Shown here: positions 43,851 through 64,000 of the stretch, piece after piece
Numbering within the stretch: the stretch's first letter is position 1
Layout of the letters: each line of letters starts with the position of its first letter
DNA from: Rhodobacter sp.
GTDB taxonomy: Bacteria > Pseudomonadota > Alphaproteobacteria > Rhodobacterales > Rhodobacteraceae
Direction: 5' to 3'
Assembly: GCA_027484145.1 (NCBI GenBank)
Contig: JAIXUH010000013.1
Coordinates: forward strand, 372,001-436,000
DNA length: 64,000 nucleotides
Position numbers and translations under genes: made by a program
Notes under the pieces: generated by a model
Seen by the model: only the letters and a program-made list of their open reading frames with translations
Told to the model about the DNA's origin: nothing
The model's database searches: none

Positions 43851-43922
43851 CTTGTAAAGACTCTTCTTGTATCGGTGCGTTTTGTGCTGTTCAAAGCCCG
43901 AAACTAGATACCGCTTTTCAAA

Positions 43923-43940: not shown

Positions 43941-43960
43941 TTGATGCGAGGGAGATTCGC

Positions 43961-46598: not shown

Positions 46599-46600
46599 CC

Positions 46601-47722
46601 ATGCAGGCAATGACCGGGGCGACAGTGTTTGACGGGCGGACGTTGCACGCCGATGCCACCCTGCTGGTGGACGGGGCAAAGGTGGTAGGCATCGCTGCCA
46701 CGGTGCCCGATGGGGCGACAGAAATTCGGCTGGACGGCGGGATATTGTCGCCCGGCTTTCTGGATTTGCAGGTGAACGGCGGCGGTGGTCATATGGTAGA
46801 CCGGACCCTGACCATGGAAAAGCTGTCAGCCATCTGCGCCACCCATATCGGCCTTGGCACGACGGGCATCCTGCCGACGCTGATCACCGATACCCCCGAG
46901 GCGCTGCAGCATGTGGTCAAGGTTGCAGCAGACGCGACAGGCATGCCCGGCTTTCTGGGACTGCACCTTGAGGGCCCGCATTTGGACCCGCGCCGCCAAG
47001 GTGCCCATGATCCGGCGCTGATCCGGCCCATGCAGGCTGCAGACCTTGATCTGCTGGTTTGGGCTGCGGCGCGCCTGCCATCCCTGATGGTGACGCTGGC
47101 CCCGGCGGCGGCAACACCGCAGCAAATTGAAGCCCTGACCGAGGCGGGCATCATTGTCAGCCTTGGCCATTCCGAATGCACCTTGGCCGAGGCTGAGGCC
47201 GCAATTGCCGCGGGCGCGCGCTGTGCCACGCACCTGTTCAACGCGATGAGCCAACTTGGCAACCGCGAACCCGGTCTGGTGGGCGCGGTCCTGACACATG
47301 ACATTTCTGCCGGTCTGATTGCGGACGGCATTCACGTCAGCCCCGCCACCATTCGGATCGCCCTTGCAGCGCGGCCCGAGGGTCTGTTTCTGGTGTCAGA
47401 CTGCATGGCAGCCACGGGCACGGATGAGACGGAATTCTTCCTTGGCGGGCGGCGGATCCTGCGGCATGACGGACGTCTGACGCTGGAAGACGGCACCCTT
47501 GCCGGGGCCGATCTGACCTTGGCGCGCGCCGTTGAGGTGATGGTGCGGCAAGTGGGCCTGTCGGTGGACAGGGCACTGTCGATGGCCACCCGGGTACCGG
47601 CATCAGTCATTGGGCGTGAGGATCTGGGCAATTTCGCCGCCGGTACGGTGGCCGACATTGTGCATCTGGACAGCCAGTTCCGGGTTTCCGCCGTTTGGAA
47701 GGCGGGCCAGAAACGGGCCTAA
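46601..47722 (+). CDS. nagA: N-acetylglucosamine-6-phosphate deacetylase
   Basis: A 373-residue amidohydrolase-fold enzyme. GFLDLQVNGGGG, LHLEGPHLDPRRQGAHDP (first metal glutamate), GHSECTLAEAEAAIAAGA, ATHLFNAM (His and Asn at the substrate site) and LVSDCMAATG (catalytic Asp) are all visible. It deacetylates GlcNAc-6-P to GlcN-6-P, the step between MurQ and the deaminase. A GTG at 46595 is an alternative start. It closes the plus-strand operon and overlaps the convergent hyuB gene by 4 bases, with no room for a terminator. Confidence 0.94.
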   Translation: MQAMTGATVFDGRTLHADATLLVDGAKVVGIAATVPDGATEIRLDGGILSPGFLDLQVNGGGGHMVDRTLTMEKLSAICATHIGLGTTGILPTLITDTPEALQHVVKVAADATGMPGFLGLHLEGPHLDPRRQGAHDPALIRPMQAADLDLLVWAAARLPSLMVTLAPAAATPQQIEALTEAGIIVSLGHSECTLAEAEAAIAAGARCATHLFNAMSQLGNREPGLVGAVLTHDISAGLIADGIHVSPATIRIALAARPEGLFLVSDCMAATGTDETEFFLGGRRILRHDGRLTLEDGTLAGADLTLARAVEVMVRQVGLSVDRALSMATRVPASVIGREDLGNFAAGTVADIVHLDSQFRVSAVWKAGQKRA

Positions 47723-49401
47723 CCTTGCCAGTTCCAAAGGGCCCTTGCCTCTTCGGCAGTATAGCGGCCAAGGCGGACATCTTCGGCAATCAGGTCCGGG
47801 TCGCGGTTTTCAGGCAAGCCATAGCCACCGCCGCCGGGGGTGCGCACACGCACGCGGTCACCTGCAGTCAGCACTATGTCCTGTGCCTTTGACAGGTGGG
47901 GCGGGACAAACACCGTGCCGTTGCGGATCACTTCGACCCGGTTCACCGCACCGTCCTTGCCGCCTTGGGCACCCAAGGGGCCGGTGCGCCCGTGGTCCAT
48001 CACGAAACTGGCGCGCGCCTCTCCGCGCAGCAATTCGATCTCATAGTCCAGACCAAAGCCGCCCCGGTGCTGCCCGGCCCCGCCAGACCCTTCGTGCAAG
48101 GCATAGCGGCGATAGAGCACCGGAAAATTCTGTTCCATGATCTCGACCGGCGGGGCCTTTGAAATGCCGATGGTCGAACAGCCGTTCGAGAGGCCGTCAT
48201 GGTCACTGTTGCCACCGTAACCACCACCGGAAATCTGATACATCACATAGTCGCTGCCCCTGACCGGATCATGCCCGCCAAGGCCAAAATTGCCGCTGGT
48301 GCCCGCCGGGGCTGCGGTGACCCGATCCGGCAGCGCCTGCACCATCGCGGCAAAGACGGCCTCGGCAATCCGCTGGCTGACCTCGGCCGCGCAGCCCGAA
48401 ACGGGGCGCGGATACTGCGCATCCAGAAAGGTTCCTTCGATGCCCGTCACATGCAGTGGTTCAAAGGCACCGGCTGACATCGGCACATCGGGAAAAATAT
48501 GGCGCATGGCCAGATAGACCGATGACAGGGTCGTGGCCCGCACCGAATTCATCGGGCCCATGCACGGCGGCGAGCTGTTGCTGAAATCAAAGGTCAGATC
48601 ATCGCCGTGTTTTGATACGGACAGGGCAATTTCCAACGGCCTATTGACCACCCCATCCGAGTCGACAAAGGCCTTGGCACGATAGGTGCCGTCGGGTACA
48701 AGCGCGATCATGGCCCGCATCTGCCGCGCCGCAAGGCTTCGCATGGCGCGGATGCACGCCGTGACCGCCGCGTCGCCATAGCGGTCCACCAGGGCGGTCA
48801 AACGCTCGGCCCCCACCAGAAGTGCCGAAGCCTGTGCCTTGACATCACCGATACGCTGTTCGCTGACGCGGATGTTTGAGCGGATGATCGACCATATTTC
48901 GGTGTCTAACACGCCTCTTTTGAACAGCTTTACCGGGGGCAGGCGCAACCCTTCCTGTTCGGCGCTGATGGCACTTGCCGAAAAGCCACCGGGCACTGCA
49001 CCACCGGTATCTGGCCAGTGACCCGTGTTCGACAGCCAGCAAAAGATGGCACCGTTCCGCCAGACCGGCATGGCAAAGCGCACATCCATCAGATGAGTTC
49101 CGCCAAGATAGGGATCATTGACGATATAGATATCGCCTGGGTCAGGGGCCGCGGTCTGGCCGGTGCGAATACGCTCCAGAATGGTGCGGGTCGAAAACTG
49201 CATGACGCCGACAAACACCGGCAGGCCACGTGAGCCTTGGGCAATCAGACTGCCGTCATCGGCGCTGTAGATTCCGTCAGACCGGTCATCCGCCTCGGCG
49301 ATCACGGGGGAAAAGGCGGCGCGGCTGAAGGTCAGGTCCATTTCATCGCAGACCTGCTGCAAGCCTGCCTGAATGACGGCAAGGGTGACGGGGTCAAGCA
49401 T
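47719..49401 (-). CDS. hyuB: Hydantoinase/oxoprolinase-family subunit B (HyuB)
   Basis: A 560-residue member of the HyuB family. It has ADDRSDGIYSADDGSLIAQGSRGLPVFVG in the first part, NDPYLGGTHLMDVRFAMPVW, and DFSNSSPPCMGPMNSVRATTLSSVYLA, plus C-terminal EGSGGAGQHRGGFGLDYEIE, all typical. With HyuA it forms an ATP-dependent cyclic amide hydrolase such as N-methylhydantoinase or 5-oxoprolinase. It overlaps hyuA by 8 bases and is last in the long minus-strand operon. The true cyclic substrate is unknown; the context suggests a reduced pyridine-derived lactam. Confidence 0.93.
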   Translation of the reverse strand: MLDPVTLAVIQAGLQQVCDEMDLTFSRAAFSPVIAEADDRSDGIYSADDGSLIAQGSRGLPVFVGVMQFSTRTILERIRTGQTAAPDPGDIYIVNDPYLGGTHLMDVRFAMPVWRNGAIFCWLSNTGHWPDTGGAVPGGFSASAISAEQEGLRLPPVKLFKRGVLDTEIWSIIRSNIRVSEQRIGDVKAQASALLVGAERLTALVDRYGDAAVTACIRAMRSLAARQMRAMIALVPDGTYRAKAFVDSDGVVNRPLEIALSVSKHGDDLTFDFSNSSPPCMGPMNSVRATTLSSVYLAMRHIFPDVPMSAGAFEPLHVTGIEGTFLDAQYPRPVSGCAAEVSQRIAEAVFAAMVQALPDRVTAAPAGTSGNFGLGGHDPVRGSDYVMYQISGGGYGGNSDHDGLSNGCSTIGISKAPPVEIMEQNFPVLYRRYALHEGSGGAGQHRGGFGLDYEIELLRGEARASFVMDHGRTGPLGAQGGKDGAVNRVEVIRNGTVFVPPHLSKAQDIVLTAGDRVRVRTPGGGGYGLPENRDPDLIAEDVRLGRYTAEEARALWNWQG

Positions 49402-51415
49402 GGCCCACCTCGATGATCAGGTTGCCATCAGCGTCAGAGGTCACCAGACAACCCGGTTCGACGACGACGGTCGTGTCCATCTGCTCGATGATCGCCGGGC
49501 CCGGCAGTTGGAGGTTCAAGGGCAGATGATCCCGCCAGTAGATCGGCGTTTCGACCCATTTGCCAAACCAGACGGGCCGCGTGCCCTGCGGCACCGCCTT
49601 CGGCTGTCGGCCAGACGGGTCTATCAAGGCGGAAAGATCCATTTCAGGCCGCTCTCCGATCACGGAACAGTTCAGGTTTACCAGATTAGCGCGGATGGTC
49701 GGAAGATCCACACGGAACCGGGCGTGATAGGCGGCTTCGAACAGGCGCTGCATGTCGTCACGCGTGGGGGCCGCATTTGGCAGGGGCACACGCAACAGAT
49801 GGGTCTGGCCGACAAACTGCATGTCTGCTGAAAACTCGGCCCTGACAGTCGTCAGCGCAATGTTCTCGGCAGCAATCAAGCGGCGGCCTTCAGCCTCTTG
49901 CGCGGCGAAAACCGCGTGAACAGAGCCTGTTTCAACGCTATCCAGTGGCCGGTTCAAGGTGCGCACAAAATCATGGCGCAGGTCAGCCACCACACAGCCC
50001 AATGCATTGGTGATACCGGGGCGCGCGGGGACCAGAACACGCGGCACCGCCAATTCGCGCGCCAAAGCCACGGCATGCAGTGGGCCTGCCCCACCAAAGG
50101 CGAACAGGGCAAAATCGCGCGGATCAGCCCCCATGGAAATGCTGACCATGCGAATGGCCCCCGCCATATGGGTATTGGCGATGCGCACGACCGCCTCGGC
50201 CGCCTGTTCCACCGTCAGACCCAAGGGCGTGCCGATCTGATCGGCCATAGCCACGCGCGCGGCGTCGACCGCCTGTCCAAACCGGCTGACGGGCAGACGG
50301 CCCAGCAGGATATTGGCATCGGAAATCGTCACGCGATGACCGCCGCGACCATAGCAGATCGGGCCGGGGGTAGAGCCTGCAGACTCTGGCCCCACGCGCA
50401 GCAGACCGCCCGCATCCACCCGCGCGATCGACCCGCCCCCTGCCCCGACGGTGCGCACATCGACCATCGGCACATGGATCGGCATGGCATACTCCACCTC
50501 GATCTCGTTCGAGACGGGCGCCCTGCCCTGACGGATCATGGCCACATCGGTGGAAGTGCCCCCCATATCATAAGTCAGAAGGTCAAGCATTCCGGCGCGG
50601 CGCCCCGTGGCGACGGCGGCCATAACGCCGGACGCTGGGCCAGACATCACGGTCTTTACCGCCTCTTTCGACACTGTTCTGGCCGAAACCATGCCGCCGT
50701 TGCCGTTCATCACCAACAGATCATGCTGATAGCCACGCGCGGCCAGTTGGTCAGCAAGGCGTAGGACGTAGCGTTCCAGCAAAGGCTGCACCGAAGCATT
50801 GACGGCCGCGGTGACGCCGCGTTCATATTCGCGGCTTTCCGACAGCAGCGCATGGCCCATCGTCACATAGGGGTTGGGCCAGACCTCGGCCGCGATCTGG
50901 GCGGCACGGCGTTCGTGCGCGGAGTTGGCATAGGCATGCAGAAAATGGATGACAAGGCTTTCGCAGCCCTTTTCCAGCAGTTGCAGAGAAGCTTTGCGAA
51001 CGGCCTCCTCATCCAGTGCAACAAGAACATTGCCGCGCGCATCCAGCCGTTCGGGCACCTCGAGCCGCAGGTCGCGCGGAATGACCGGGGTGAAACGCCC
51101 GGTCATGCCATAGGCATTGGGCCGGGTCCGGCGGCCAAGTTCCAGCACATCGCGAAAGCCCATAGTCGTGATCAGGCCTGTTCGGCACAAGGCCCGCTCG
51201 AGCACCGCATTTGTTGTGGTCGTCGTGCCGTGCACGATCAGGTCAAGGGAAGACAGATCGGCTCCCTTCGCTTCGAACGCAGCAAGCACACCGTGGGACT
51301 GATTGGGCAGACTGGTGGGCACCTTGGCCAGTTTGACTGCGCCCGTGGCCGGGTCAAAGATCACCAGATCGGTGAAGGTTCCCCCAACATCGACGCCTGC
51401 CACCAAACCCGCCAT
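49394..51415 (-). CDS. hyuA: Hydantoinase/oxoprolinase-family subunit A (HyuA)
   Basis: A 673-residue ATPase subunit. The N-terminal actin-like phosphate motif is GVDVGGTFTDLV, then HGTTTTTNAVLERA and LTYDMGGTSTDVAMIRQG. The C-terminal half includes GADPRDFALFAFGGAGPLHAVALA. In this family ATP phosphorylates the ring carbonyl to drive hydrolysis. The ATG at 51415 overlaps the livF-like stop by one base; a GTG at 51418 is an alternative. HyuA-HyuB always act as a complex, and both genes are intact here. Confidence 0.93.
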   Translation of the reverse strand: MAGLVAGVDVGGTFTDLVIFDPATGAVKLAKVPTSLPNQSHGVLAAFEAKGADLSSLDLIVHGTTTTTNAVLERALCRTGLITTMGFRDVLELGRRTRPNAYGMTGRFTPVIPRDLRLEVPERLDARGNVLVALDEEAVRKASLQLLEKGCESLVIHFLHAYANSAHERRAAQIAAEVWPNPYVTMGHALLSESREYERGVTAAVNASVQPLLERYVLRLADQLAARGYQHDLLVMNGNGGMVSARTVSKEAVKTVMSGPASGVMAAVATGRRAGMLDLLTYDMGGTSTDVAMIRQGRAPVSNEIEVEYAMPIHVPMVDVRTVGAGGGSIARVDAGGLLRVGPESAGSTPGPICYGRGGHRVTISDANILLGRLPVSRFGQAVDAARVAMADQIGTPLGLTVEQAAEAVVRIANTHMAGAIRMVSISMGADPRDFALFAFGGAGPLHAVALARELAVPRVLVPARPGITNALGCVVADLRHDFVRTLNRPLDSVETGSVHAVFAAQEAEGRRLIAAENIALTTVRAEFSADMQFVGQTHLLRVPLPNAAPTRDDMQRLFEAAYHARFRVDLPTIRANLVNLNCSVIGERPEMDLSALIDPSGRQPKAVPQGTRPVWFGKWVETPIYWRDHLPLNLQLPGPAIIEQMDTTVVVEPGCLVTSDADGNLIIEVGHA

Positions 51416-52110
51416 CACACCCCCACAAACTGCCGGAACAGGGTCGAATCTGGCCGCAGATCCGTCACCGAAACCTGCGCTTCAACCCGTCCGTGCGCCA
51501 TGAAGGCCACCTGATCGGCCATTCGCAGCACCGACTCGACGCGCTGTTCCACAAGTACTGTGGCAAGGCCCGTTTCCCGCAACTTCAGGACCGTGTCGCG
51601 GATCAGCGCGATCATCGAGGGTTGAAGCCCTTCGGTCGGTTCGTCCAGCAGCAGCACCTTTGGCTCAAGACACAGAGCGCGGGCAATGGCCAGCATCTGC
51701 TGCTCGCCGCCCGACAGGGTCGAGGCGGTTTGGTCCAGCCGTTCACGCAGGCGGGGAAACAGGTCCAGCACAAAGTTCCGGGTCTTTGCACCGCCGTTGC
51801 GCGCCAACAGACCCACATCGATGTTTTCGCCAACGGTCAGCGGACCAAACAGGCGGCGGCCTTGTGGCACATAGGCGACACCTTGCAGCGGCACCTTGTG
51901 GGCGGGCAGGCGGTGCAGCGGTTGGCCCAACAGCGCGATCTGGCCCGATTGCGCCGGAACCAACCCCATGATGGCCTTCATCAGGGTCGATTTGCCCGCC
52001 CCATTGCGGCCCATGATGCAGGTCACCTGACCCGCCGCCGCCTGAAACGACAGATCACGCAGGATGGTGACAGGGCCATATCCGGCTGTCAGACCGTTAA
52101 TCTGCAGCAT
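51415..52110 (-). CDS. livF: Branched-chain-type ABC transporter ATP-binding protein LivF
   Basis: A 231-residue ATPase. Walker A is GRNGAGKST, Q-loop YVPQGRRLFGPLTV, signature LSGGEQQML, Walker B VLLLDEPTEGLQP. The YVPQGR-rr form and short length are typical of LivF. The start at 52110 is better spaced from GGGGG than ATG 52113. It overlaps livG by 14 bases. It energises the importer together with LivG. Confidence 0.93.
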   Translation of the reverse strand: MLQINGLTAGYGPVTILRDLSFQAAAGQVTCIMGRNGAGKSTLMKAIMGLVPAQSGQIALLGQPLHRLPAHKVPLQGVAYVPQGRRLFGPLTVGENIDVGLLARNGGAKTRNFVLDLFPRLRERLDQTASTLSGGEQQMLAIARALCLEPKVLLLDEPTEGLQPSMIALIRDTVLKLRETGLATVLVEQRVESVLRMADQVAFMAHGRVEAQVSVTDLRPDSTLFRQFVGV

Positions 52111-52816
52111 CATGTCCCCCAAGATAGGCGTCCTGAACGGCCCGGTTCTGACGGATGTCCTGTGGCGTGCCGACGGCCAGAACCTGCCCGAAGTTAAGCA
52201 CCGTAATCCGGTGGGCAAGATCCATCACCACGTCCATGTTATGCTCGATCAGCAGCACCGTGGTGTCGGGCGCAAGACCGTTGACCAGCGCCTTGAAGCC
52301 CTCGATCTCGGACGCAGCAAGGCCTTGGGTCGGCTCATCCAGAATCAGAACACGCGGGCGCAGGGCCAGACCCATGGCCAGTTCCAAAAGGCGCTGATGC
52401 CCATATGACAGGCTTCCGGCCAGCATCGCCTCATGGTCCGCCAGACCAACCCGCGACAGATGCGTCGCCACCTGTTGGTCAAGGCCCGCCGCACCCGCGC
52501 TTTGCACGGCAAGGGCGACGTTGTCAAAAACAGTCAGACGGGGAAACACCGACGTGATCTGAAAGGTATAGGCGATGCCCTTTTTCACGCGCTGGTGCGC
52601 GGGCAGATGGGTGATGTCTTCGCCCGCCAGTTCAATGCGGCCGGACTGCACCGGAACCCGCCCTGACAGCAAGCCGACAAAGGTGGTTTTTCCCGCGCCA
52701 TTCGGGCCGATCAGGGCATGAATCTCGCCCGCCTGCAGGCTCAGGCTGGCGCCATCCACCGCGCGCAACCCGCCGAAGTGGCGGTGAAGGTCTTGTGCCA
52801 CCATCAGGGGAGCCAT
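52097..52816 (-). CDS. livG: Branched-chain-type ABC transporter ATP-binding protein LivG
   Basis: A 239-residue ATPase. Walker A is GPNGAGKTTF, Q-loop TFQITSVFPRLTV, signature LSYGHQRLLELAM, Walker B VLILDEPTQGLAA. The signature LSYG and the H-loop region LLIEHNMDVVM mark LivG. The ATG at 52816 overlaps livM by 13 bases; a second ATG at 52804 is possible. Confidence 0.93.
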   Translation of the reverse strand: MAPLMVAQDLHRHFGGLRAVDGASLSLQAGEIHALIGPNGAGKTTFVGLLSGRVPVQSGRIELAGEDITHLPAHQRVKKGIAYTFQITSVFPRLTVFDNVALAVQSAGAAGLDQQVATHLSRVGLADHEAMLAGSLSYGHQRLLELAMGLALRPRVLILDEPTQGLAASEIEGFKALVNGLAPDTTVLLIEHNMDVVMDLAHRITVLNFGQVLAVGTPQDIRQNRAVQDAYLGGHDAAD

Positions 52817-53748
52817 CGGACCCCCCGTTCCCGCAAGGCGCCAAGGATTCCTTTGGGCGCGAAGAGCACCAAGGCCACCAGTGCCGCGCCCACCACGAAG
52901 AAATAGGCGTCGGTGATTCCGCTGGCTAAATCGATCAGGTAGAACATCGCCAAGGCCCCCAGAAACGGGCCGATCACCGTGCCCGCCCCGCCCAACAGCA
53001 CGTAAAGCATGGGCAGGATGGAATACTGGATCGTGGCAAATGTGGCCCCAACATAGCCGAACAGCAGGCCATAGGCCGCCCCGGCCAGCCCGGCATAGAA
53101 GCCCGACAGAACCAGCGTGATCAGCTTTATGGCAAAGGGGTTATAACCCAGCATACGGCTGCGCTCTTCGTTCTCGCGCATTGCCACCATCACGCGGCCA
53201 AAGGGCGACCGAACAAGCCAGAGGCAAAGCAGAAGGGCAAGCGCGAACAGCCCAAGCGCCACCAGATAGCGCGGCGTGTCAGCGGAAAGGTCAAGGCTGC
53301 CAATCATTCGCAAGCTGCGATCGGGGTTGAAGCCTTCGTCGCCGCCGGTGATGGTGCCAAAGTACAGCAGCGCCAGATAACCCGCCTGTGCGAACATCAG
53401 CGTCACAATCATGAAGCTGACTCCAGCCGTGCGCAGGGCCAGAACACCAACCGCCCCTGCAAGAAGCCCCCCAGCGACCAGACCCGCGATCAGTGCAGGA
53501 AGGGCCGTCCAGCCCAGCAAAGTCAGCGACAGGCCCATGCCATACATGCCCGCCGCAAAGAACAGCGCGTGGCCCAAAGACAACAGGCCCGTGTAGCCAA
53601 AGGCAATGTTGTAGCCCATGGCAAAGATCGACAGCACCATGATGCGCGCAAGGTTGGTGGCATGATAGGGTGGCAGCACATATTGCGCGGCAAACAGAAC
53701 TGCGATCAGCCCCAGATGTAGCGCCCAGATCTTTTGGCTCGCAGTCAT
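52804..53748 (-). CDS. livM: Branched-chain-type ABC transporter permease LivM
   Basis: A 314-residue membrane protein with eight or more hydrophobic helices. The LivM pattern GYNIAFGYTGLLSLGHALFFAAGMY is present, and a cytoplasmic MVAMRENEERSRMLGYNPFAIKL loop precedes the final helices, where ATPases dock. It starts with an ATGA overlap on livH. Confidence 0.93.
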   Translation of the reverse strand: MTASQKIWALHLGLIAVLFAAQYVLPPYHATNLARIMVLSIFAMGYNIAFGYTGLLSLGHALFFAAGMYGMGLSLTLLGWTALPALIAGLVAGGLLAGAVGVLALRTAGVSFMIVTLMFAQAGYLALLYFGTITGGDEGFNPDRSLRMIGSLDLSADTPRYLVALGLFALALLLCLWLVRSPFGRVMVAMRENEERSRMLGYNPFAIKLITLVLSGFYAGLAGAAYGLLFGYVGATFATIQYSILPMLYVLLGGAGTVIGPFLGALAMFYLIDLASGITDAYFFVVGAALVALVLFAPKGILGALRERGVRWLP

Positions 53749-54623: not shown

Positions 54624-54658
54624 GGTGGCGCACCAGTTGGTAAGCAGGGAAGGGGTGT

Positions 54659-54682
54659 GCAGGGCGGCGTCAACCGCCCTGC
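54659..54682 (-). other. Intercistronic hairpin after the binding-protein gene
   Basis: GCAGGGCGG and CCGCCCTGC form a perfect 9-bp stem with a 6-base loop, starting 7 bases after the livK stop. No T-run follows. It probably protects the binding-protein message from 3' decay and lowers permease expression, as with malE-malF in enteric bacteria. Confidence 0.6.
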
Positions 54683-54689
54683 GGGCCGA

Positions 54690-55970: not shown

Positions 55971-56076
55971 CATTCTCTCCTGTCGTTATGGGCACTGTTT
56001 TGGTCAGGTGCCTCTGGTGATTCAGATTGTAGGCATGCAAACGATTTGTCTACGTTTTCCTGTGCCCGCCCCGCGA

Positions 56077-57474
56077 CTATCCGGTGCGGGCGGTGGACAA
56101 GAGCCAAAGGCCCAGAATTGTATAGGCGACCATCAGGCCCGTCATCGGCAGATGGGCTATGGCGCGGGTCTCCGGCCCCACCAGCCGCAGGGCCAGAAAC
56201 ACGGCCAGAACATGCGCCCCAAGAATGGCCATGAACTGCGCGGCATAGATCAGTGGCATGATGCGTGTGTCGGTCAGGAACCCGAACGATACGTAAAAGG
56301 CCGGCAGGCCCAGCAAGGAGTCGCCCCGGAACAGCGGATCATTCAGCGCGGCAATGGTGTATTGCCCTGCCGTCAGCAGCGTGACCAGATAATGGGCCGC
56401 GTGATAACCTGCGGCGATGGCAAGAAACGACAGCATCACCGGCCCCGGGGCAAACCGGGCCCCGCCGATCATGCCGCCCATCCGGATCGTCAGGTGAATG
56501 AGGGCCGAGGTCAGCGCCCATGTGCCGACAAGGCCCAGCGTGTTCTGCACCATCACGGCAGACCGGCCGGTCGGCTCCAGCGGGTTTTCACCAATGACGC
56601 TGTGCCACCAGAACGTCTCCATCAGGCCATCGAAGGTCAGCGCCGACAAGGCCAGCGTCACAAAAGCCACCGCCGAGGCATCAAGCGGCTTCATCTGCAA
56701 CACCTGCGTGCCGGGGGTGCCCAGCATCAGGTGTCGGTCAACCGGGTCAACCCAAAGCGGCGCAACCTTGGCCAGAAAGCCCATCAGCACTGTCAGGAAC
56801 TCGCCGCGCTCCAACCAGTCCTCGCCCTCCAGCACCCCAAGGCCAAAGATCACGAGCCAATAGGCAAGCGCGACCGTTGCAAGTACCGCCGGGTCATCAG
56901 GCGCAAGGGATACCATCTGAAACCACGCAAACCCGGCATAACCCAATACGGCGGGCCAATGGCCAAGCCGCGACAGGCCAATGCCGCCCGTGCGCCCCAG
57001 CAAGGTGCGCATGATTCGAATGGGCGCAATCCAAGGGTTGAACACCTGCCAGACATTACCCAGCAGCATCGACGCTAGGGGAATGGCGATCCAGACCACA
57101 GTCCAGAACACCAGCGTCATCAGGTTGTGCATCGGGTCACGCGCGCCCAGAAATCCGACCAGCACAAGCCCGAGAAAACACAGAAACGAAAGGTAAGACG
57201 TGATGGAAACCGGCACCCGCACGGGGCGCTGCCAGATCGCCCGCGCGCCCAGCGAAGGCGCGTGTTGCGCCATGCTTCCCAACAGCGCCGTAACGGCAAC
57301 CGTGACCGCCGCAGCGGCAATGTAATGGCCCGAAGGCAGGGTCAGAATCACGCTTGGCGGCAGGGCACAGGCAAGGGCCATTCCGGGCAAAAGCTGCAGG
57401 CATAGGCCCGATTTGACCAGCAGGGCCACTGCATTTGCGACACCAGAAGAAGGTTTGGGTGCCCGGTGCCGCAT
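56077..57474 (-). CDS. Polytopic membrane protein of unknown function
   Basis: A 465-residue protein with roughly 11-12 hydrophobic segments. It has no recognised transporter signature. A conserved-looking segment is LLGNVWQVFNPWIAPIRIMRTLLGR, which resembles polytopic actinobacterial proteins sometimes annotated as fenitrothion hydrolase; that link is from memory and weak. Its start overlaps the DUF1185 stop (TGATG), so it is co-translated with the catabolic genes. A transport, respiratory-anchor or membrane-oxidase role are all possible. Confidence 0.6.
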   Translation of the reverse strand: MRHRAPKPSSGVANAVALLVKSGLCLQLLPGMALACALPPSVILTLPSGHYIAAAAVTVAVTALLGSMAQHAPSLGARAIWQRPVRVPVSITSYLSFLCFLGLVLVGFLGARDPMHNLMTLVFWTVVWIAIPLASMLLGNVWQVFNPWIAPIRIMRTLLGRTGGIGLSRLGHWPAVLGYAGFAWFQMVSLAPDDPAVLATVALAYWLVIFGLGVLEGEDWLERGEFLTVLMGFLAKVAPLWVDPVDRHLMLGTPGTQVLQMKPLDASAVAFVTLALSALTFDGLMETFWWHSVIGENPLEPTGRSAVMVQNTLGLVGTWALTSALIHLTIRMGGMIGGARFAPGPVMLSFLAIAAGYHAAHYLVTLLTAGQYTIAALNDPLFRGDSLLGLPAFYVSFGFLTDTRIMPLIYAAQFMAILGAHVLAVFLALRLVGPETRAIAHLPMTGLMVAYTILGLWLLSTARTG

Positions 57475-58055
57475 CAGCGCAGCCCGTCCTCGCCCTTGAC
57501 CTGCCAGCTTTCCAGCCCCCCCATGCGTGAATGCACGCGCGGCCCCTTGGCCATGACCAGAATGAACAGGATTTCGTTCGCCCGTGGCCCATCCGGAACG
57601 CTGACGGTCATGGCGTCAAAATGGCTGCGCACATAGGCGGCATTGATATGGCCGACCGGAATGTCGATCGTGGTGCCCATGCCGCCCACCTTCATCGCCG
57701 ATGGCACAATGGCGCGGCTTTCGCCCAGCCTTTCACGCATCGAATAGCCGCCGGGCACATGCCACAGGGCGCCATGTTCTGCCTCACCATTCTCGCCCAC
57801 GATGGCGCCTTTGCCATAGCCGTCGATGCCCGCTTTGCCGCCAAGGGCCGCAATCAGATGATCCGTCAGGGTAAGGCCAAGGGGCTTCAGATCCTCCATC
57901 GCGGGTTGCAGATCGGCATGATAGCTGCCCGCAAAGGGGTTTGCGACGATTGCCATGGCTGCGCCCCGCAAGCGCGGGGTGGCGGGCGCTGGCCCACCTT
58001 CGTGCATCACCTGTTCAATATGCAGTGCGATCTTGCGAACGGGAAAGTCAGGCAC
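57474..58055 (-). CDS. DUF1185 (amino acid synthesis family) protein
   Basis: A 193-residue alpha/beta protein of the PF06684-type family, with RKIALHIEQVMHEGG at the start, AAMAIVANPFAG, GKGAIVGENGEAEHGALWHVPGGYSMR and PSAMKVGGMGTTIDIPVGH. The family label 'amino acid synthesis' is historical and its reaction is not established. Here it overlaps the UPF0280 gene by 8 bases. The GTG start follows AGGAG. Co-occurrence with 6-hydroxynicotinate reductase points to a role in N-heterocycle catabolism. Confidence 0.82.
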   Translation of the reverse strand: MPDFPVRKIALHIEQVMHEGGPAPATPRLRGAAMAIVANPFAGSYHADLQPAMEDLKPLGLTLTDHLIAALGGKAGIDGYGKGAIVGENGEAEHGALWHVPGGYSMRERLGESRAIVPSAMKVGGMGTTIDIPVGHINAAYVRSHFDAMTVSVPDGPRANEILFILVMAKGPRVHSRMGGLESWQVKGEDGLR

Positions 58056-58884
58056 AAGCGGGCTCCTTCAGGGCAAATGCACCAAGGGTGCGTATCTCAG
58101 GGTGCAGGAAAAGGGCTGCCGCTTCAATCAATCCGATCTGGCGATAAGCCCGTGCAGCAGTTTCGCCTGAGTCCAGAGCGCGGGCAACCTCTGCCGCGGT
58201 CAGCGCAGGCACCTCAACCGTCACCTTTCGTGCACCAAGGTCACTGTCGGCCTGCAACGATTGTGCGGGGCGGCGCAGGATGCCGGGATGATCCGGTAGA
58301 TTGACGGCATTGGCGATCATCGTGGCGGCGGCATCGGCGGCCGATGCCGTTTTCGCCAGCACTGTCACGGAATCGGCAATGCCAAACGACCAACTGCGCC
58401 CCCGCCACCCCGAGGTGGCAATGCCGCGCACCCCGTCTTCGGCGCGCAAAGTGATGCTGTCGGGCGCACCTGCACGCGCGGCGATGGCGCAGCGCAGGCT
58501 GTGGCCGGGTGCAAGATGCAGCGCAATGTCACCGCCGTTGTTCACATAGGCGCGTGTGATGCCGGGCAGAACCATCCGCGCCAGAACCGCCTCGGCTACC
58601 GCGCCGGCAACGGCCGCCATCGGCGTGACAAAGGCCGGGCGGAACGGCGCGACGGCGGCGGCCATGACCCGCGCAATCGCCCCCTTTGGCGCGCCATCGG
58701 CAGACCGCAACACCGGAAGTTCAGCGACAAGTTCGGCCAGAATCGTGTCGAACCTTGTGGCGGCCTGCGCTTCGGCCTGCGCGATGGCGGAAGGATGGCC
58801 CCAGCACTGCGCCACGATGTCGATAGGCCCGTGATGCAGGTGCAACCGGCCATCGGGCAAGCGCGCGACCTGGGCCTGCATCAT
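58048..58884 (-). CDS. UPF0280 family protein (ApbE-superfamily relative)
   Basis: A 278-residue protein with LPDGRLHLHHGPIDIVAQ, AYVNNGGDIALHLAPG and RGIATSGWRGRSWSFGIADSVTVLAKTASAADAAATMIANAV, which are hallmarks of UPF0280. The fold is related to ApbE, the FAD:protein FMN transferase. If that similarity is functional, it could attach or handle flavin on the neighbouring reductase. The start at 58884 overlaps the reductase stop by 4 bases; 58881 is the alternative. Confidence 0.82.
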   Translation of the reverse strand: MMQAQVARLPDGRLHLHHGPIDIVAQCWGHPSAIAQAEAQAATRFDTILAELVAELPVLRSADGAPKGAIARVMAAAVAPFRPAFVTPMAAVAGAVAEAVLARMVLPGITRAYVNNGGDIALHLAPGHSLRCAIAARAGAPDSITLRAEDGVRGIATSGWRGRSWSFGIADSVTVLAKTASAADAAATMIANAVNLPDHPGILRRPAQSLQADSDLGARKVTVEVPALTAAEVARALDSGETAARAYRQIGLIEAAALFLHPEIRTLGAFALKEPACA

Positions 58885-60326
58885 GGCGTGCCCTTTCCCG
58901 GCCAAGGCTCGATGCGGGCGGCGGTCGGATATTCGCCGCCCCTATCCTGAACCGAAGCCAGATCGCGGATTGCGTCAAAATGCCCGCCCATCTGCAGATA
59001 GTCGTTTCGCGGCATGGTGAATTCAAGCGGGGCAACAAGGGCGGGCGTTGGCACATAACCGAACGCGCCCTTGGGCAAGGCAGTCACGTCCACCATGAAG
59101 GTGATGCCCCCACCCGGCCAGATGTAGCATTCCGCACCACCGCTTGTCAGCCGGGTCTGGCGCGCCTGCACCGATCGGGTCAGCCGGACCGGGTTGCTGG
59201 TGACACCCGCCCGCAACGACCCGCCAGCCCCGCCCATGAACAGCACCGTGCACAAGGATCGTTCGCAGTTTTCATCAATCAGACCGACCGTGGCCTGCAA
59301 CGCGGCGGGCAATGGCTGCTTCTGCGGGATCAGAGCCTGATCGAGAACGTAGTAGCCATATTCCTCGCCCGTGGTGGACACCATCAGCAGGCGCAGGCCC
59401 GGACGCGCACCCTTCTTGGCATTCCATTCGCCCAGAATTTCCAGCGGATCGGTCAGGCAGGTGCCGCCCCACCCCAGCCCCGGTTCAGATACACGGAAAT
59501 ACCGCCCCGGTGTGGATCGGCTGCCCTTGATCCGGATTCCGGTCGGTTGCCAGCCCAAGACCTTGCCCGCCTGATGTTCGCTGACGACCCCGGTGATATG
59601 GTCATCAACGACAACCACCTCATCCACCAGACCCAGCCATTGGCTGGCAAACATCCCGATAGTGGCCGAACCACAGCCAACCCGCATGCGCCGTTCGGTG
59701 CGGCCATCGACAATCGGCGCCTGACCTGCCTGCACCACCACGGTGGAGCCGCCGTCAATGGACAAAGCAACCGCCTCACCGTTGCACAAGGCCAGCATGG
59801 CGGCACAGGTCACGCGCCCTTCGGCCTTTGTGCCGCCAGTCAGATGGTGCACACCGCCCAGCGACAGCATCTGGCTGCCGTATTCGGCGGTTGTCACCAG
59901 ACCCACGGCCTCACCTTCGCTGCGCACGATGGCACCTTCGGGGCCAAGGTGGCGGTCGGTGTCGATTTTGACCTTGACGCCGCAGTACGAAAAAATCGCC
60001 TCGGTCACGACGGTGACCACATCGGCGCCGTCAACTTCGGACGAGATGATGAAGGGTGCGGGCTTGTAGTCGGGATAGGTGGTTCCCGACCCAATTCCCG
60101 TCACGAAACTGTCGGCGGGCAGGGGGTCGCCGGTCCAGTCACGCGCGGCAAAGGGCACGATGCGGCTTCCATGCTCCATCGCCTGCGACAGCATCACCAC
60201 CGGGTCCGTACGGACGATGCGGCCCGCGTCATTGGCATAGCGGTCACAGGCCCCGGTTTGCCCCGGCGCGATGTAGCACATCACCGGGCAGGCATCACAG
60301 CGGATCTTCTCGGTGCCGTCGGTCAT
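58881..60326 (-). CDS. 6-hydroxynicotinate reductase-like Fe-S enzyme
   Basis: A 481-residue protein. The N-terminal cysteine cluster RCDACPVMCYIAPGQTGACDRY gives four Cys suited to a [4Fe-4S] centre (Cys10, 13, 17, 27). The rest, including GIGSGTTYPDYKPAPFIISSEVDGADVVTVVTEAIFSYCGVKVKIDTDRHLG-type blocks and GWGGTCLTDPL, matches proteins annotated as 6-hydroxynicotinate reductase. That enzyme reduces 6-hydroxynicotinate to 1,4,5,6-tetrahydro-6-oxonicotinate using ferredoxin. It lies right after the molybdenum hydroxylase gene (ATGA overlap), which makes that pathway coherent. The name rests on family recall, not on a search. Confidence 0.78.
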   Translation of the reverse strand: MTDGTEKIRCDACPVMCYIAPGQTGACDRYANDAGRIVRTDPVVMLSQAMEHGSRIVPFAARDWTGDPLPADSFVTGIGSGTTYPDYKPAPFIISSEVDGADVVTVVTEAIFSYCGVKVKIDTDRHLGPEGAIVRSEGEAVGLVTTAEYGSQMLSLGGVHHLTGGTKAEGRVTCAAMLALCNGEAVALSIDGGSTVVVQAGQAPIVDGRTERRMRVGCGSATIGMFASQWLGLVDEVVVVDDHITGVVSEHQAGKVLGWQPTGIRIKGSRSTPGRYFRVSEPGLGWGGTCLTDPLEILGEWNAKKGARPGLRLLMVSTTGEEYGYYVLDQALIPQKQPLPAALQATVGLIDENCERSLCTVLFMGGAGGSLRAGVTSNPVRLTRSVQARQTRLTSGGAECYIWPGGGITFMVDVTALPKGAFGYVPTPALVAPLEFTMPRNDYLQMGGHFDAIRDLASVQDRGGEYPTAARIEPWPGKGTP

Positions 60327-62980
60327 GGCCGAGCCTTTATCGCTGTCATGATTCGGTGCGGCAGAGCGGGCACCCGTGTCAGCTTGGCCCCCGTTGCATG
60401 GCGGATGCCATTCAGAATGGCCGGGGCGGTGGGAATCAGAACATGCTCTCCCAACCCTTTTGCACCATAGGGGCCCTCAGGATCGGGCACCTCGATCAGC
60501 AGGCTTTCGATCGGGGGAACGTCACCAAAGGTGGGGATCAGATAATCATGCAGGTTTTCCGTACGCCCCGGCAGGTATTCTTCCATCAGCGCAAGGCCGA
60601 TGCCTTGGGCAATGCCGCCTTCGATTTGTCCGGTAGCAAGCTGTGGGTTGATCGCGCGACCCACATCATGGGCCGCTGTGATCTTCAGCAGGCGCACGGT
60701 GGCAAGATCGGAATCGACCGACAGTTCGACCATTTGCGCGCCATAGCCGTAAAGCGCATAGGGGCTGCCCTGCCCGTTGGCATCCAGTTTGGAGGTGGGC
60801 GGATCATAGGTTTCTTCGGCGGTCAGGGCATAGCCATGGCCATCGGGTGGCAGTGCCGACAGATCGATGATCCTGCGCACCGCCCCTTCGGCCACGGTCA
60901 GCCGCGGCCCCTCCATCGTCAGTGAAGCCGATGGCCCTGCGTTGGCAAGGCGCAGGATCTGAGAGCGTAGCGCTTCCGCCGCTGCCTTGGCCGCGCGACC
61001 CGTGACAAAGGTCTGTCGGCTGGCCGAAGTTTTGCCTGCATCCGGGGTCAGGGCCGTATCGGGACCGATCAGAACGAACTGTGACAGGGGCAGGCCAAGT
61101 GCTTCGGACGCGATCTGACTGATAACGGTGTTCGACCCTTGGCCAATATCGATGGCACCCTGATGCAGAACCACCTGCCCCTGCCGCGACAACCCGATGC
61201 GAATGGTTGACGGGTTCGGCAATGAGGTATTGCCGCAACCATACCAGCAGGATGCGATGCCAACGCCGCGCCCGGGCGTGCAGTCGGCCAAGGCGCGTTG
61301 CCAATGCGGGCGCAGCGCCGCAAGGCAGGCCGCGATGCCAACAGCCTTTAGGGTTTGGCCTGTTGCGGAAGCGTCACCATCCCGCAGGGCGTTCAGATGG
61401 CGGAATTCGAGGCGGTCCAGACCCGCCTTTTCCGCCAGTTCGTCATAAAGCGTTTCCTGCCACAGCGCGGCTTGCGGCACACCAAAGCCGCGAAACGCGC
61501 CCGAAACGGGCCCATGCGTATGAACCGCCCGTGCGCGCGCTGTGACATGCGGCGTCAGATAGGGGCCGGTTACATGCACGGGCACGCGGTTGGCCACGGT
61601 CGGGCCCCAACTGGAATAGGCGCCTGTGTTGAAGCGGCCTTCGAACTCGACCGCGACAATCCGGCCTGTGCTGTCACACCCGATTCGGCCCTGCATTTCG
61701 GCGGGGTGGCGCTTGGTTGTCGATGCCATGCTTTCCGCGCGGGAATAGGTCATTCGGCAAGGGCGCCCAGTGCGCAGGGTAACAAGCCCGATCAGCGGTT
61801 GCAGGCTGACATCCAGCTTGGACCCGAACCCGCCACCAACAGCGGATGGAATCATCCGCACGCGTTCCGGCGGCAAGGCAAGGATCAGTGCCGTATCGTC
61901 GCGGTCCATCACAGGCGCTTGGGTGCAAGCACGGATGCAAAGAGTGTCACCCTCCATCCAAGCCGACCCCGCCTCAGGCTCGATATAGGCATGTTCAACG
62001 AACGCCGTTTCCATGCTGCCCGCAACGATATGCGCGGCATTGGCAAAGGCGGTGGTGCTGTCACCCTTGATCACGCGCCCTTCGATCAGGCGGTTTGCCG
62101 GCCGGTCGGCGTGAACCAGCATGGCCTCGGTTTCGGCCTGCGCGGGCGATATCACCGCCGAAAGGGGCGACCATGAAACCGGGAATTCGGCAAGGTCAGG
62201 CTCTGTTCCCGGCTCGAAGGCAACAACGGCCACGCATTCACCACGGAAACGGGCGGGGCTTTCGGCAATGGCGGGTTGGTCGGCAAAGGCCGGGATCACG
62301 CCAAAGGCATTGCGGCCGGGCACATCCTTTGCGGTCAAAATAAGGGCCACGCCGGGGCGCGCAGCAAAGGCGGCAAGGTCTCCAAAGGCAAAGGCAGCAT
62401 GGGCATGGGGCGACCGCACGGCGCGAACGACAAGCGCCCCATCCGGGGCTTCGTCGTCGCCAAAGCTGTCGCCTGCCACCTTGGCCGCGCCATCGACGCG
62501 CGCAACGGCAGCACCGACACCCTGACCAACGACGCTGTCGAGTGCTGTGTTGCAGATGGCGGAAATGATCTTGCGGTATCCGGTGCAGCGACACAGCACA
62601 CCGCCAAGCGCATCCTTCGCCTCGTCCTCAGTGGGGTGCGGATTGCGGCGCAGCAGGTCCACCCCGGCCATCAGCATGCCAGGTGTGCAGATGCCACATT
62701 GCGCGGCACCATGGCGCAGGAAGGAGTCGCGCAGTTTGTCCAGATCGGCGCTGTCGGATTCAATCGTTTCAAACGTGCAACCATCGGCGCGCGCAGCCGG
62801 AATCAGGCAGGCACAGACTTGGTTGCCGTTCATCAACACCGTGCAGGCCCCGCAATCACCGGCGTCACACCCGACCTTGGTGCCCTTTGCGCCCAGACCT
62901 TCGCGCAAAACCTCGGTCAGGCGGGCGGTCGGGGCCGCTGTTGCGGTGACGGTTCGGCCGTTCAGGGTAAAGCGGATCAT
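60323..62980 (-). CDS. Molybdenum hydroxylase: fused [2Fe-2S] and Mo-cofactor subunits (nicotinate-dehydrogenase-like)
   Basis: An 885-residue xanthine-dehydrogenase-family protein. Residues 1-155 hold two [2Fe-2S] centres: CDAGDCGACTVLMNGNQVC (Cys38, 43, 46, 58) and CGICTPG with CRCTGY. The Mo-binding part (about 165-885) has AGSAWMEGD, AVGGGFGSKLD, GAFRGFGVPQAALW and GAKGLGEH, whose final Glu is the expected catalytic base. In most relatives these are two separate proteins; here they are one chain. The likely reaction is water-dependent hydroxylation of an N-heterocycle such as nicotinate. It overlaps the FAD subunit and reductase genes by 4 bases each. Confidence 0.88.
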   Translation of the reverse strand: MIRFTLNGRTVTATAAPTARLTEVLREGLGAKGTKVGCDAGDCGACTVLMNGNQVCACLIPAARADGCTFETIESDSADLDKLRDSFLRHGAAQCGICTPGMLMAGVDLLRRNPHPTEDEAKDALGGVLCRCTGYRKIISAICNTALDSVVGQGVGAAVARVDGAAKVAGDSFGDDEAPDGALVVRAVRSPHAHAAFAFGDLAAFAARPGVALILTAKDVPGRNAFGVIPAFADQPAIAESPARFRGECVAVVAFEPGTEPDLAEFPVSWSPLSAVISPAQAETEAMLVHADRPANRLIEGRVIKGDSTTAFANAAHIVAGSMETAFVEHAYIEPEAGSAWMEGDTLCIRACTQAPVMDRDDTALILALPPERVRMIPSAVGGGFGSKLDVSLQPLIGLVTLRTGRPCRMTYSRAESMASTTKRHPAEMQGRIGCDSTGRIVAVEFEGRFNTGAYSSWGPTVANRVPVHVTGPYLTPHVTARARAVHTHGPVSGAFRGFGVPQAALWQETLYDELAEKAGLDRLEFRHLNALRDGDASATGQTLKAVGIAACLAALRPHWQRALADCTPGRGVGIASCWYGCGNTSLPNPSTIRIGLSRQGQVVLHQGAIDIGQGSNTVISQIASEALGLPLSQFVLIGPDTALTPDAGKTSASRQTFVTGRAAKAAAEALRSQILRLANAGPSASLTMEGPRLTVAEGAVRRIIDLSALPPDGHGYALTAEETYDPPTSKLDANGQGSPYALYGYGAQMVELSVDSDLATVRLLKITAAHDVGRAINPQLATGQIEGGIAQGIGLALMEEYLPGRTENLHDYLIPTFGDVPPIESLLIEVPDPEGPYGAKGLGEHVLIPTAPAILNGIRHATGAKLTRVPALPHRIMTAIKARP

Positions 62981-63807
62981 GCCAACACCTCGGCAACGGC
63001 GCGTTGCAGCAGGTGGGTGGCTGCCTCAACACGGTATTCGGCTGAGGCGCGGATGTCATCAATGGGCGACAGATGGCTGGCCACATCCGCAGACCGAATC
63101 TGCGCTGCTGCATCCTTTGGCGATGCGCCGACCAAGGCGGATTCGACCCTGTGCAGGCGCAAGGCTGTGGCCGAACAGGCCCCGATGGCAAGGGCCGCCG
63201 TCACGATGCGGCCCTCAGCGACAGTGATCCGGGCCGCCACCATGGCAATCGAGATCACAAGATAGGCCCGCGCGCCAAGCTTGATAAAGGCCGAACGACC
63301 GGTCAGCGCATGATCTGGCAGCACCACGGCTGTCAGCACCTCATCCGCCGCCCGGTCTGTCTGGCGCGGACCCCGCAGGAACTGGTCAAGCGCGACCTGC
63401 CGAACACCGCGGGGCGATGTCAACTCAACCTCGGCATCCAGAATCAGCAGCGGCGGCACACCATCTGCTGCGGGCGAGGCGTTGCACAGATTGCCTCCGA
63501 TGGTGCCCGCATTCTGGATCTGACGGCCACCAACCTGCAAAGAGGCCTGTTGCAAGGCAAGCAGCGCCGGGGGCAGGCTGGACTGTGCGATCTGGGTCCA
63601 TGTGGTGCAGGCCCCGATGCGCAGGCCCTTGTCGCTGTGGACGATGCCTGCCAAGGCGGGAATTGCCGACACGTCCAGCACGTCACCATCCAGTTGCGCG
63701 CCCGATCCGGGGTAAAGGTCGGTGCCACCCGCCATGACCTTGCGCGGACGATCGGCCATCAAGGCCATGGCACCTGCCAGTGTTTCCGGTCGCGCGTAGT
63801 GGCGCAT
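62977..63807 (-). CDS. FAD-binding subunit of the molybdenum hydroxylase
   Basis: A 276-residue CoxM-type subunit. FAD-contact motifs are MAGGTDLYPG (residues 25-34) and NAGTIGGNLCNASPAAD (about 104-120), followed by the C-terminal CO-dehydrogenase flavoprotein domain. It passes electrons from the Mo/Fe-S chain to an acceptor. It is the first gene of the 13-gene operon, divergent from the MarR-like gene, and its stop overlaps the Mo-subunit start (ATGA). Confidence 0.92.
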   Translation of the reverse strand: MRHYARPETLAGAMALMADRPRKVMAGGTDLYPGSGAQLDGDVLDVSAIPALAGIVHSDKGLRIGACTTWTQIAQSSLPPALLALQQASLQVGGRQIQNAGTIGGNLCNASPAADGVPPLLILDAEVELTSPRGVRQVALDQFLRGPRQTDRAADEVLTAVVLPDHALTGRSAFIKLGARAYLVISIAMVAARITVAEGRIVTAALAIGACSATALRLHRVESALVGASPKDAAAQIRSADVASHLSPIDDIRASAEYRVEAATHLLQRAVAEVLA

Positions 63808-63833
63808 GGGTCCCCCGATTGTGGTTCCGATTA

Positions 63834-63880
63834 TTGTATGTGTGCAAATTATATTGGAGCCCGAAATCTTGTTCTGTCAA
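63834..63880 (-). promoter_or_regulatory. Candidate promoter and operator of the heterocycle operon
   Basis: On the minus strand, TTGACA (63880-63875) and a perfect TATAAT (63853-63848) are separated by 21 bases, longer than the ideal 17, with the -10 hexamer about 40 bases before the first ATG. Immediately downstream, TTGTATGTGTGCAA (63834-63847, plus strand) is an imperfect TTG-CAA palindrome overlapping the expected start site, a position suited to repression by the divergent MarR-like regulator. Confidence 0.45.
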
Positions 63881-63950
63881 CTCTTGCCTTGCTGTAGCCC
63901 TCTGCGTGTTCCGGCTTGCACCGCGGCTGCTGCAGGTCTAATCGAATTGC

Positions 63951-64000
63951 ATGAGCAACCCGCCTGATTATGTGCTGGATGAGCAGATTGGCTTTGTGCT
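63951..64000 (+). CDS. Divergent MarR-like regulator, truncated by window end
   Basis: Only about 16 codons are visible: MSNPPDYVLDEQIGFVL. The pattern DEQ-I/V-GF-x-L is common at the N-terminus of MarR-family regulators, and the pseudomonad nicotinate regulator NicR is also a MarR protein. It is transcribed away from the hydroxylase operon across a 143-base gap. The assignment rests on a short segment. Confidence 0.5.
   Translation, partial: MSNPPDYVLDEQIGFV

Follow-up and report, generated by a model that had tools for sequence, protein, structure and literature searches.

Nicotinate is broken down reductively in Eubacterium barkeri, where the genes (locus L161 of our set) are arranged in the order 6-hydroxynicotinate reductase (Hnr), UPF0280, a 3-hydroxyisobutyrate-dehydrogenase-type gene, the FAD, Fe-S and two Mo subunits of nicotinate dehydrogenase, PTS_EIIC_2, enamidase and DUF1185. 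The ring to be opened is that of 1,4,5,6-tetrahydro-6-oxonicotinate (THON), a six-membered enamide lactam. Enamidase is described as bifunctional, performing both ring opening and deamination (PMC9304392), and the reductive route is also on record in alphaproteobacteria, namely in Azorhizobium and Bradyrhizobiaceae (PMC3511419). Here, we describe a 13-gene operon of Rhodobacter sp., located in a 64,000-nucleotide stretch (the window, contig C38:372001-436000; the genome assembly has 4.97 Mb and 39 contigs), in which the two-subunit protein HyuAB is present and enamidase was not found. The operon is probably a reductive nicotinate operon, a reading that draws on the synteny of Hnr more than on the tree of the Mo subunit, with the substrate and activities predicted from sequence. 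The pathway is already known, and the part that appears to be new is the ring opening; no report of HyuAB opening the ring in a nicotinate route was found in the open-access literature, which was searched in part.

Both the E. barkeri cluster and the window contain homologs of the Mo hydroxylase, Hnr, UPF0280 and DUF1185, and in both Hnr adjoins UPF0280. Of the two, only E. barkeri has enamidase, a split Mo subunit, the 3-hydroxyisobutyrate-dehydrogenase-type gene, PTS_EIIC_2 and a ferredoxin domain on Hnr; HyuAB, an Fe-S/Mo fusion subunit and a Liv importer are found in the window, whose Hnr has no ferredoxin domain. A scan using the E. barkeri enamidase gave 11 loci, one of which (L171; 25% identity, no Hnr found) was left out. 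The remaining ten (L161-L170) all contain Hnr, and nine of them contain UPF0280 and DUF1185, L165 ending inside Hnr. Splitting of the Mo subunit as in E. barkeri is not a general feature, since L167, L169 and L170 encode this subunit in one long open reading frame (ORF); only ORFs of about half the length were seen in L163, L164 and L166. Clusters with enamidase and Hnr (L165-L170) occur in Anaerotruncus colihominis, Hespellia stercorisuis, Dysosmobacter, Pseudoflavonifractor and a deltaproteobacterial metagenome-assembled genome, among others. The PTS_EIIC_2 gene of E. barkeri (L161:8730-9905) lies between nicotinate dehydrogenase and enamidase and is a candidate nicotinate transporter.

The cluster of Azorhizobium and Bradyrhizobiaceae was compared by its description only (PMC3511419). 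It resembles the window in its alphaproteobacterial origin, in an Hnr with about 42% identity to that of E. barkeri, in an ABC transporter and in two conserved unknown proteins, which are plausibly UPF0280 and DUF1185. As described, the cluster encodes the three initial steps, and HyuAB goes unmentioned in the part of the article available.

Matches to Pfam, NCBIfam and (for HyuA) PDB, together with motifs named in PMC8453981, place the window's HyuAB in the family of caprolactamase (CapAB), 5-oxoprolinase (OplAB) and N-methylhydantoinase. In this family, the A subunit activates the lactam with ATP and the B subunit hydrolyses it at a metal site; CapAB hydrolyses caprolactam (PMC8453981) and the ATP-dependent OplAB the six-membered delta-valerolactam (PMC11033972). 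Unlike CapAB, the window's proteins scored 480 bits (HyuA, caprolactamase alpha model NF050156) and 305 bits (HyuB, caprolactamase beta model NF050157), below the equivalog cut-off of 1000, and their proposed substrate is an enamide lactam carboxylate. The PDB matches of HyuA were 7hk5 (419 bits) and 6yra (360 bits). The phosphate 1, phosphate 2 and adenosine motifs were present in all 31 cluster HyuA sequences extracted, that of the window included, and the Asp-His-Asp-His metal-site motifs in all 30 cluster HyuB sequences extracted. In the window's HyuB, the motif assigns the metal site to H103, D106 and H128, with D39 or D42 as the first Asp.

Distribution of HyuAB and enamidase

Hnr was detected in 103 of the 295 genomes of the window's family and in 67 of 385 genomes sampled from its class (70 matches, less the window's own genome and two matches of about 34 residues in G655 and G474). 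A first-pass annotation of the window had called the route poorly described in aerobic Rhodobacteraceae; the family count, together with the reports for Azorhizobium and Bradyrhizobiaceae (PMC3511419), shows that it is not unknown in presumed aerobes.

Among the 170 Hnr-positive alphaproteobacterial genomes, 95 have an ortholog of HyuB, 72 an ortholog of enamidase, none both and three neither. The 103 genomes of the family comprise 57 with HyuB (at least 74% identity), 43 with enamidase (at least 72%), none with both and all three with neither; the 192 Hnr-negative genomes of the family gave two HyuB orthologs, both partial, and no enamidase ortholog (Fisher p 8e-26, a value that ignores descent). 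Outside the family, the 67 Hnr-positive genomes of the class were divided between HyuB (38) and enamidase (29), each at 64% identity or more, with no genome having both or neither. The corresponding control consisted of 80 Hnr-negative genomes out of 140 chosen for it, and contained HyuB at 64% or more in none, copies at 57-62% in three and enamidase in one (G375, 74%). The three Hnr-positive genomes with neither gene are G014, with a stop-ridden Hnr and HyuB copies, G109, with a 49% enamidase-like protein, and G147, which is 73% complete. Partial HyuB copies without a detected Hnr were seen in G022 and G155, and the HyuB matches of G014 contain stops as its Hnr does; these three genomes possibly reflect pathway decay or broken contigs. 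No enamidase match at E<=0.001 was obtained anywhere in the window's own genome, and a copy hidden elsewhere in it was rejected on this ground.

Gene neighbourhoods were collected from the window's genome, from 40 of the 102 other Hnr-positive genomes of the family and from 20 of the 67 of the class, hand-chosen for spread and for contigs that were likely to be of sufficient length. A total of 68 merged neighbourhoods resulted (60 genome regions, seven plasmid loci and the window), of which 66 were used for tallies after L037 (same record as G239) and G334 (no Hnr ORF extracted) had been dropped. HyuA was seen near Hnr in 34 of the 45 neighbourhoods labelled HyuAB, enamidase in 15 of the 21 labelled enamidase, and the opposite kind never. 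Hnr was present in 26 plasmid records. Of the seven read with their annotation, five had HyuAB as the ring-opening enzyme and the other two an amidohydrolase. That amidohydrolase is enamidase, as evidenced by 2vun as the top PDB match (361 and 376 bits). A scan of all ORFs for another gene marking one cluster type found none that stood out, a weak negative given that many groups were antisense shadows.

A quick tree of Hnr (69 rows: 45 HyuAB and 24 enamidase) required at least seven switches of label, all seven of which are forced by starred branches. Close relatives with different labels were G397 versus G502/G591 (fork 100*), G134 versus G070 (87) and G101 versus G063/G059 (81). Between one and the same pair of flanking genes, G397 carries HyuB-HyuA and its relative G502 carries enamidase, both on the same strand.

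Operon architecture and the families around Hnr

The 13 ORFs run from 63807 down to 47719, preceded by a divergent regulator gene:

63951-64000, plus strand: initial 50 bases of the gene for a divergent MarR-family regulator (MarR/MarR_2 match), continuing to contig C38:436370
62977-63807, minus strand: FAD subunit of the molybdenum hydroxylase, NdhF-like (PF00941, FAD_binding_5; PF03450, CO_deh_flav_C; 36% to the E. barkeri FAD subunit)
60323-62980, minus strand: fused [2Fe-2S]x2/molybdopterin subunit, predicted nicotinate 6-hydroxylase (Fer2, Fer2_2, Ald_Xan_dh_C, MoCoBD_1/2; 3hrd A+B about 440 bits; tree)
58881-60326, minus strand: 6-hydroxynicotinate reductase (Hnr), lacking a ferredoxin domain at the N terminus (41.5% identical to the E. 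barkeri protein; conserved Cys)
58048-58905, minus strand: UPF0280 protein with ApbE-like fold, proposed Hnr maturation/flavin factor (NF003322; Foldseek 2o34, then ApbE flavin transferases)
57474-58055, minus strand: DUF1185/AA_synth protein (PF06684; solved relatives 3byq and 2qtp)
56077-57474, minus strand: polytopic membrane protein (no Pfam/NCBIfam match; travels with the LivK-type importer)
54690-55973, minus strand: LivK-type periplasmic binding protein (Peripla_BP_6)
53745-54623, minus strand: LivH-type permease (BPD_transp_2)
52804-53748, minus strand: LivM-type permease (BPD_transp_2)
52097-52816, minus strand: LivG-type ATPase (ABC_tran, BCA_ABC_TP_C)
51415-52218 (likely start near 52113), minus strand: LivF-type ATPase (ABC_tran)
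49394-51418, minus strand: HyuA, ATP-binding subunit of an ATP-dependent lactamase (Hydantoinase_A; NF050156; 7hk5 and 6yra)
47719-49401, minus strand: HyuB, hydrolytic subunit with a metal site, proposed to open the THON ring together with HyuA (Hydantoinase_B; NF050157)

All ORFs were found in the order given by the first-pass annotation, on one strand, and its overlaps at nearly every junction were recovered at ten of the 12, the two gaps being 103 bp (membrane protein/LivK) and 66 bp (LivK/LivH). From reading of the sequence, ATG starts at 58884 (rather than 58905) for UPF0280 and near 52113 for LivF are likelier, and with them the junctions remain overlapping. The family assignments likewise held, by profile matches in Pfam and NCBIfam and, for Hnr, by identity to the E. 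barkeri protein. Of the proposed span of 47719..63951, the operon itself covers 47719-63807; the divergent MarR gene begins at position 63951 and as a whole occupies contig C38:435951-436370, mostly beyond the window. MarR genes were also seen close to Hnr in 54 of the 66 neighbourhoods.

Eight ORFs were scanned up to 12 kb past position 64000, with shorter or overlapping ORFs left out. They comprise MarR, an NADH:flavin oxidoreductase, HlyD, an RND pump, arginase and a metallo-hydrolase, plus two genes of ABC transporters. The enamidase and later-step genes that the first-pass annotation had suggested looking for there were not among them: MarR apart, no pathway gene was recognised in these eight ORFs, including for the steps after 2-formylglutarate, for which no genome-wide search was made. 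At the other end, a plus-strand NagK-GntR-NagB-NagA operon for N-acetylglucosamine use (window 43922-47722) converges on hyuB. The 3' ends of hyuB and nagA share four bases, and the nag operon is not part of the system.

Two importer types were observed, the window's type, with LivK and separate LivH and LivM, and a second with fused LivHM (18 of 66 neighbourhoods). The membrane protein at 56077-57474 accompanies the window-type LivK importer in 21 of 22 neighbourhoods and was never seen without that LivK type; it is possibly an accessory of the importer.

The conservation of synteny that the first-pass annotation had proposed to look for was borne out, UPF0280 being near Hnr in all 66 neighbourhoods and immediately after it in 65, and DUF1185 near it in 60. 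A chance arrangement is excluded by this conservation. Profiles of the two families were also run on 60 of the 295 genomes of the family, and UPF0280 was present in all 21 Hnr-positive and in none of the 39 Hnr-negative genomes.

UPF0280 matched NF003322 with 348.9 bits (cut-off 290) and gave no Pfam match. Its model (predicted local distance difference test score, pLDDT, 92.5) retrieved the Desulfovibrio protein DVU1097 (2o34) first in Foldseek and then ApbE flavin transferases, the latter with E values of 4e-5 to 9e-4 and probabilities of 0.98-1.00 but TM-scores of only about 0.3-0.48. A covalently bound flavin is reported for the Hnr of E. barkeri, and we propose from the modelled fold and the strict pairing with Hnr that UPF0280 matures this enzyme. 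Proof from sequence that UPF0280 is an ApbE was sought and rejected, since hhalign returned a probability of 2.4% and aligned a short ATSG...ADAxAT stretch. UPF0280 and ApbE thus have in common the fold and this short resemblance, whereas the SH..DP.TG segment, whose His is catalytic in ApbE, is missing from UPF0280 in an alignment with the genome's own ApbE. Two ApbE-family genes above the family cut-off are located elsewhere in the genome. The missing segment would also suit an independent pathway enzyme that is not a maturase, and the four NCBIfam models that match UPF0280, all named "hypothetical protein", and the solved relative DVU1097 are in keeping with that; against it stand the fold match, the pairing with Hnr and the flavin reported for E. 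barkeri, and we give this alternative somewhat short of an even chance. In the open-access literature, searched in part, no paper using the word UPF0280 was found, and no open-access paper was found on ApbE together with hydroxynicotinate.

DUF1185 has a chorismate-mutase-like fold, and a role in amino-acid metabolism was proposed for it earlier, partly from the neighbourhood of Liv genes (PMC2954203). In our set it was near Hnr in 40 of 45 HyuAB and 20 of 21 enamidase neighbourhoods, and a relative adjoins enamidase in E. barkeri. That DUF1185 helps in the hydrolysis of the enamine is only a suggestion, because it is present in both versions of the pathway. A distant second copy (39%) is located at G000:C23:99201-99731 in the window's genome; such copies occur in Hnr-negative genomes too, which indicates that DUF1185 has another role as well.

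Hnr, its electron supply and the substrate

Neither the Hnr-like protein of the window nor the membrane protein was recognised by a Pfam or NCBIfam profile at E<=0.001. The former is 41.5% identical to the E. barkeri Hnr over 441 columns, Cys10, 13, 17, 27, 218 and 354 are conserved in all 72 alignment rows, and the annotation of 17 of its 26 relatives on plasmids reads 6-hydroxynicotinate reductase. A known fold could not be assigned, as the best PDB match of the model (pLDDT 75.9), with E 0.009 and a probability of 0.13, is not credible.

The first-pass annotation had described the system as the E. barkeri-type route, with ferredoxin-dependent ring reduction and a differing ring-opening part. 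The reductive, Hnr-type character of the route and the difference in ring opening stand; the dependence on ferredoxin is doubtful. A dicluster ferredoxin domain (two CxxCxxCxxxC motifs) begins all eight readable Firmicutes and deltaproteobacterial Hnr genes (eight of the ten loci, L163 beginning inside Hnr and the Hnr of L168 being broken), and such an N-terminal 2[4Fe-4S] domain was found in none of the 66 alpha- and betaproteobacterial Hnr proteins, that of the window included. As this domain is missing, the electron donor of the proteobacterial enzymes may differ from the anaerobic one. A ferredoxin-NADP reductase gene is near 11 of 66 Hnr genes. A separate dicluster ferredoxin gene near Hnr was considered and rejected, pattern hits being obtained in just two of the 68 merged neighbourhoods: both hits of G063 lie at a distance of over 10 kb from Hnr, and the hit of G003 is a stop-containing chance read.

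For the Mo subunit, the two chains of nicotinate dehydrogenase (3hrd) summed to about 440 bits, compared with 307 for 4-hydroxybenzoyl-CoA reductase and 365 for the best aldehyde oxidoreductase, the last value including the Fe-S domain. In a tree with long reference branches, in which three relatives were entered as half-length ORFs, the Mo subunits of 16 proteobacterial clusters formed one clade and grouped with the E. barkeri nicotinate dehydrogenase and 4-hydroxybenzoyl-CoA reductase (Shimodaira-Hasegawa-like approximate likelihood ratio test, SH-aLRT, 87). Outside this group lay xanthine dehydrogenase and aldehyde oxidoreductase, but also a NicB protein annotated as nicotinate dehydrogenase. 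The first-pass annotation had named clustering with xanthine, CO or isoquinoline enzymes as the outcome that would speak against its assignment, and the tree does not refute it. Given the long branches, the half-length entries and the place of NicB, the position in the tree does not fix the substrate, and we regard the tree as moderate evidence. Oxidation of xanthine or aldehydes as the role of the Mo enzyme was rejected on the synteny with Hnr and on the scores.

The indecisiveness of the tree leaves room for the same pathway acting on a nicotinate derivative (trigonelline, nicotinamide or another pyridine carboxylate) with extra genes elsewhere, in which case HyuAB may open a derivative of THON. 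Rieske oxygenase genes in ten of 66 Hnr neighbourhoods (including L035 and L040), and genes for flavin mono-oxygenases at some of the plasmid loci read with annotation, would fit an upstream dealkylation, perhaps of an N-substituted nicotinate such as trigonelline. The window operon, however, has no such extra gene, and four of the 66 neighbourhoods contain, near Hnr, a NicB-type gene that two plasmid records label nicotinate dehydrogenase. We consider a derivative unlikely as the substrate.

Role of HyuAB and the proposed pathway

HyuAB as a stand-in for enamidase is supported by the exclusive distribution of the two (95 HyuB, 72 enamidase, no genome with both), the switches on the Hnr tree, the swap in place between G397 and G502, the motifs and the precedent of OplAB and CapAB. 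The HyuAB family is functionally broad, including hydantoinase, oxoprolinase, caprolactamase and acetone/acetophenone carboxylase, and many genomes have several HyuAB paralogs; HyuAB might be thought to do another job (N-acyl, imide or hydantoin hydrolysis, or carboxylation) with an unlinked hydrolase opening THON, but this leaves the exclusivity, the switches and the swap unexplained and is improbable. That the exclusivity reflects clade structure only, two old cluster types never mixing and without functional equivalence, agrees with the sharing of labels by related genomes (shuffled labels needed about 20 changes on the Hnr tree, compared with the actual seven), but is rendered very improbable by the seven switches being the minimum forced by starred branches and by close relatives that differ, such as G397 versus G502/G591.

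Several observations weigh against replacement of enamidase by HyuAB and the roles assigned to its companions. The orthology cut-offs were set after the identity gaps had been seen, and the gap for HyuB, 74 to 60% in the family, is narrower in the class (64 to 62%), where a sister subfamily of HyuB occurs at 54-62%, including in three of the 80 Hnr-negative genomes. Out of 38 genomes with HyuB in the class, three (G357, G397 and G580) also contain distant enamidase-like proteins (37-41%). The family searches scored at most four HyuB and six enamidase candidates per genome, so that a second, weaker match may have escaped them. Near Hnr, HyuA went unseen in 11 of 45 neighbourhoods and enamidase in six of 21, their label coming from a gene elsewhere in the genome, and G375 has enamidase without a detected Hnr, which may have been missed. 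The absence from UPF0280 of the catalytic-His segment and its insignificant hhalign result with ApbE also count here, as does the presence of DUF1185 in both versions, which does not explain a HyuAB-specific step.

Gene content, synteny, mutual exclusivity, motifs and the fold of UPF0280 come from the sequences and models; for the substrate, the reactions, their order and the roles of UPF0280 and DUF1185 we propose the following. Nicotinate would be imported by LivKHMGF and the companion membrane protein, converted to 6-hydroxynicotinate by the FAD and Fe-S/Mo hydroxylase and reduced by Hnr to THON. HyuAB would then open the lactam at the expense of ATP, with HyuA activating it and HyuB hydrolysing it at the metal site, and the product, 2-(aminomethylene)glutarate, would give 2-formylglutarate with loss of ammonia. 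HyuAB would supply the opening step alone, the enamine that is left hydrolysing spontaneously or with help. UPF0280 would mature Hnr by flavin loading, and DUF1185 would act at a step common to both versions, perhaps in enamine or formylglutarate chemistry. We consider it likely that the operon imports nicotinate and degrades it reductively, with HyuAB as a non-homologous replacement of enamidase that opens THON, UPF0280 as an Hnr maturase and DUF1185 at a shared step. The more demanding joint claim, that HyuAB and enamidase have been swapped at least seven times and never occur together in the 170 genomes, that Hnr dispenses with the ferredoxin domain and that UPF0280 is a dedicated Hnr maturase with an ApbE fold without the catalytic His, appears to us evenly balanced.

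This reading would give a specific function to a HyuAB subfamily so far annotated only as hydantoinase/oxoprolinase, and would make ring opening a clear-cut example of a pathway step replaced repeatedly by a non-orthologous enzyme. The orphan families UPF0280 and DUF1185 would both be tied to one pathway, and for DUF1185 the synteny points to nicotinate breakdown rather than amino-acid metabolism, at least for this subfamily. These proteobacteria are presumably aerobes, and their ferredoxin-less Hnr suggests how an anaerobic reductase was adapted. As judged by Hnr, the pathway would be present in about one-third of the sampled genomes of the family, 57 of them with HyuAB.

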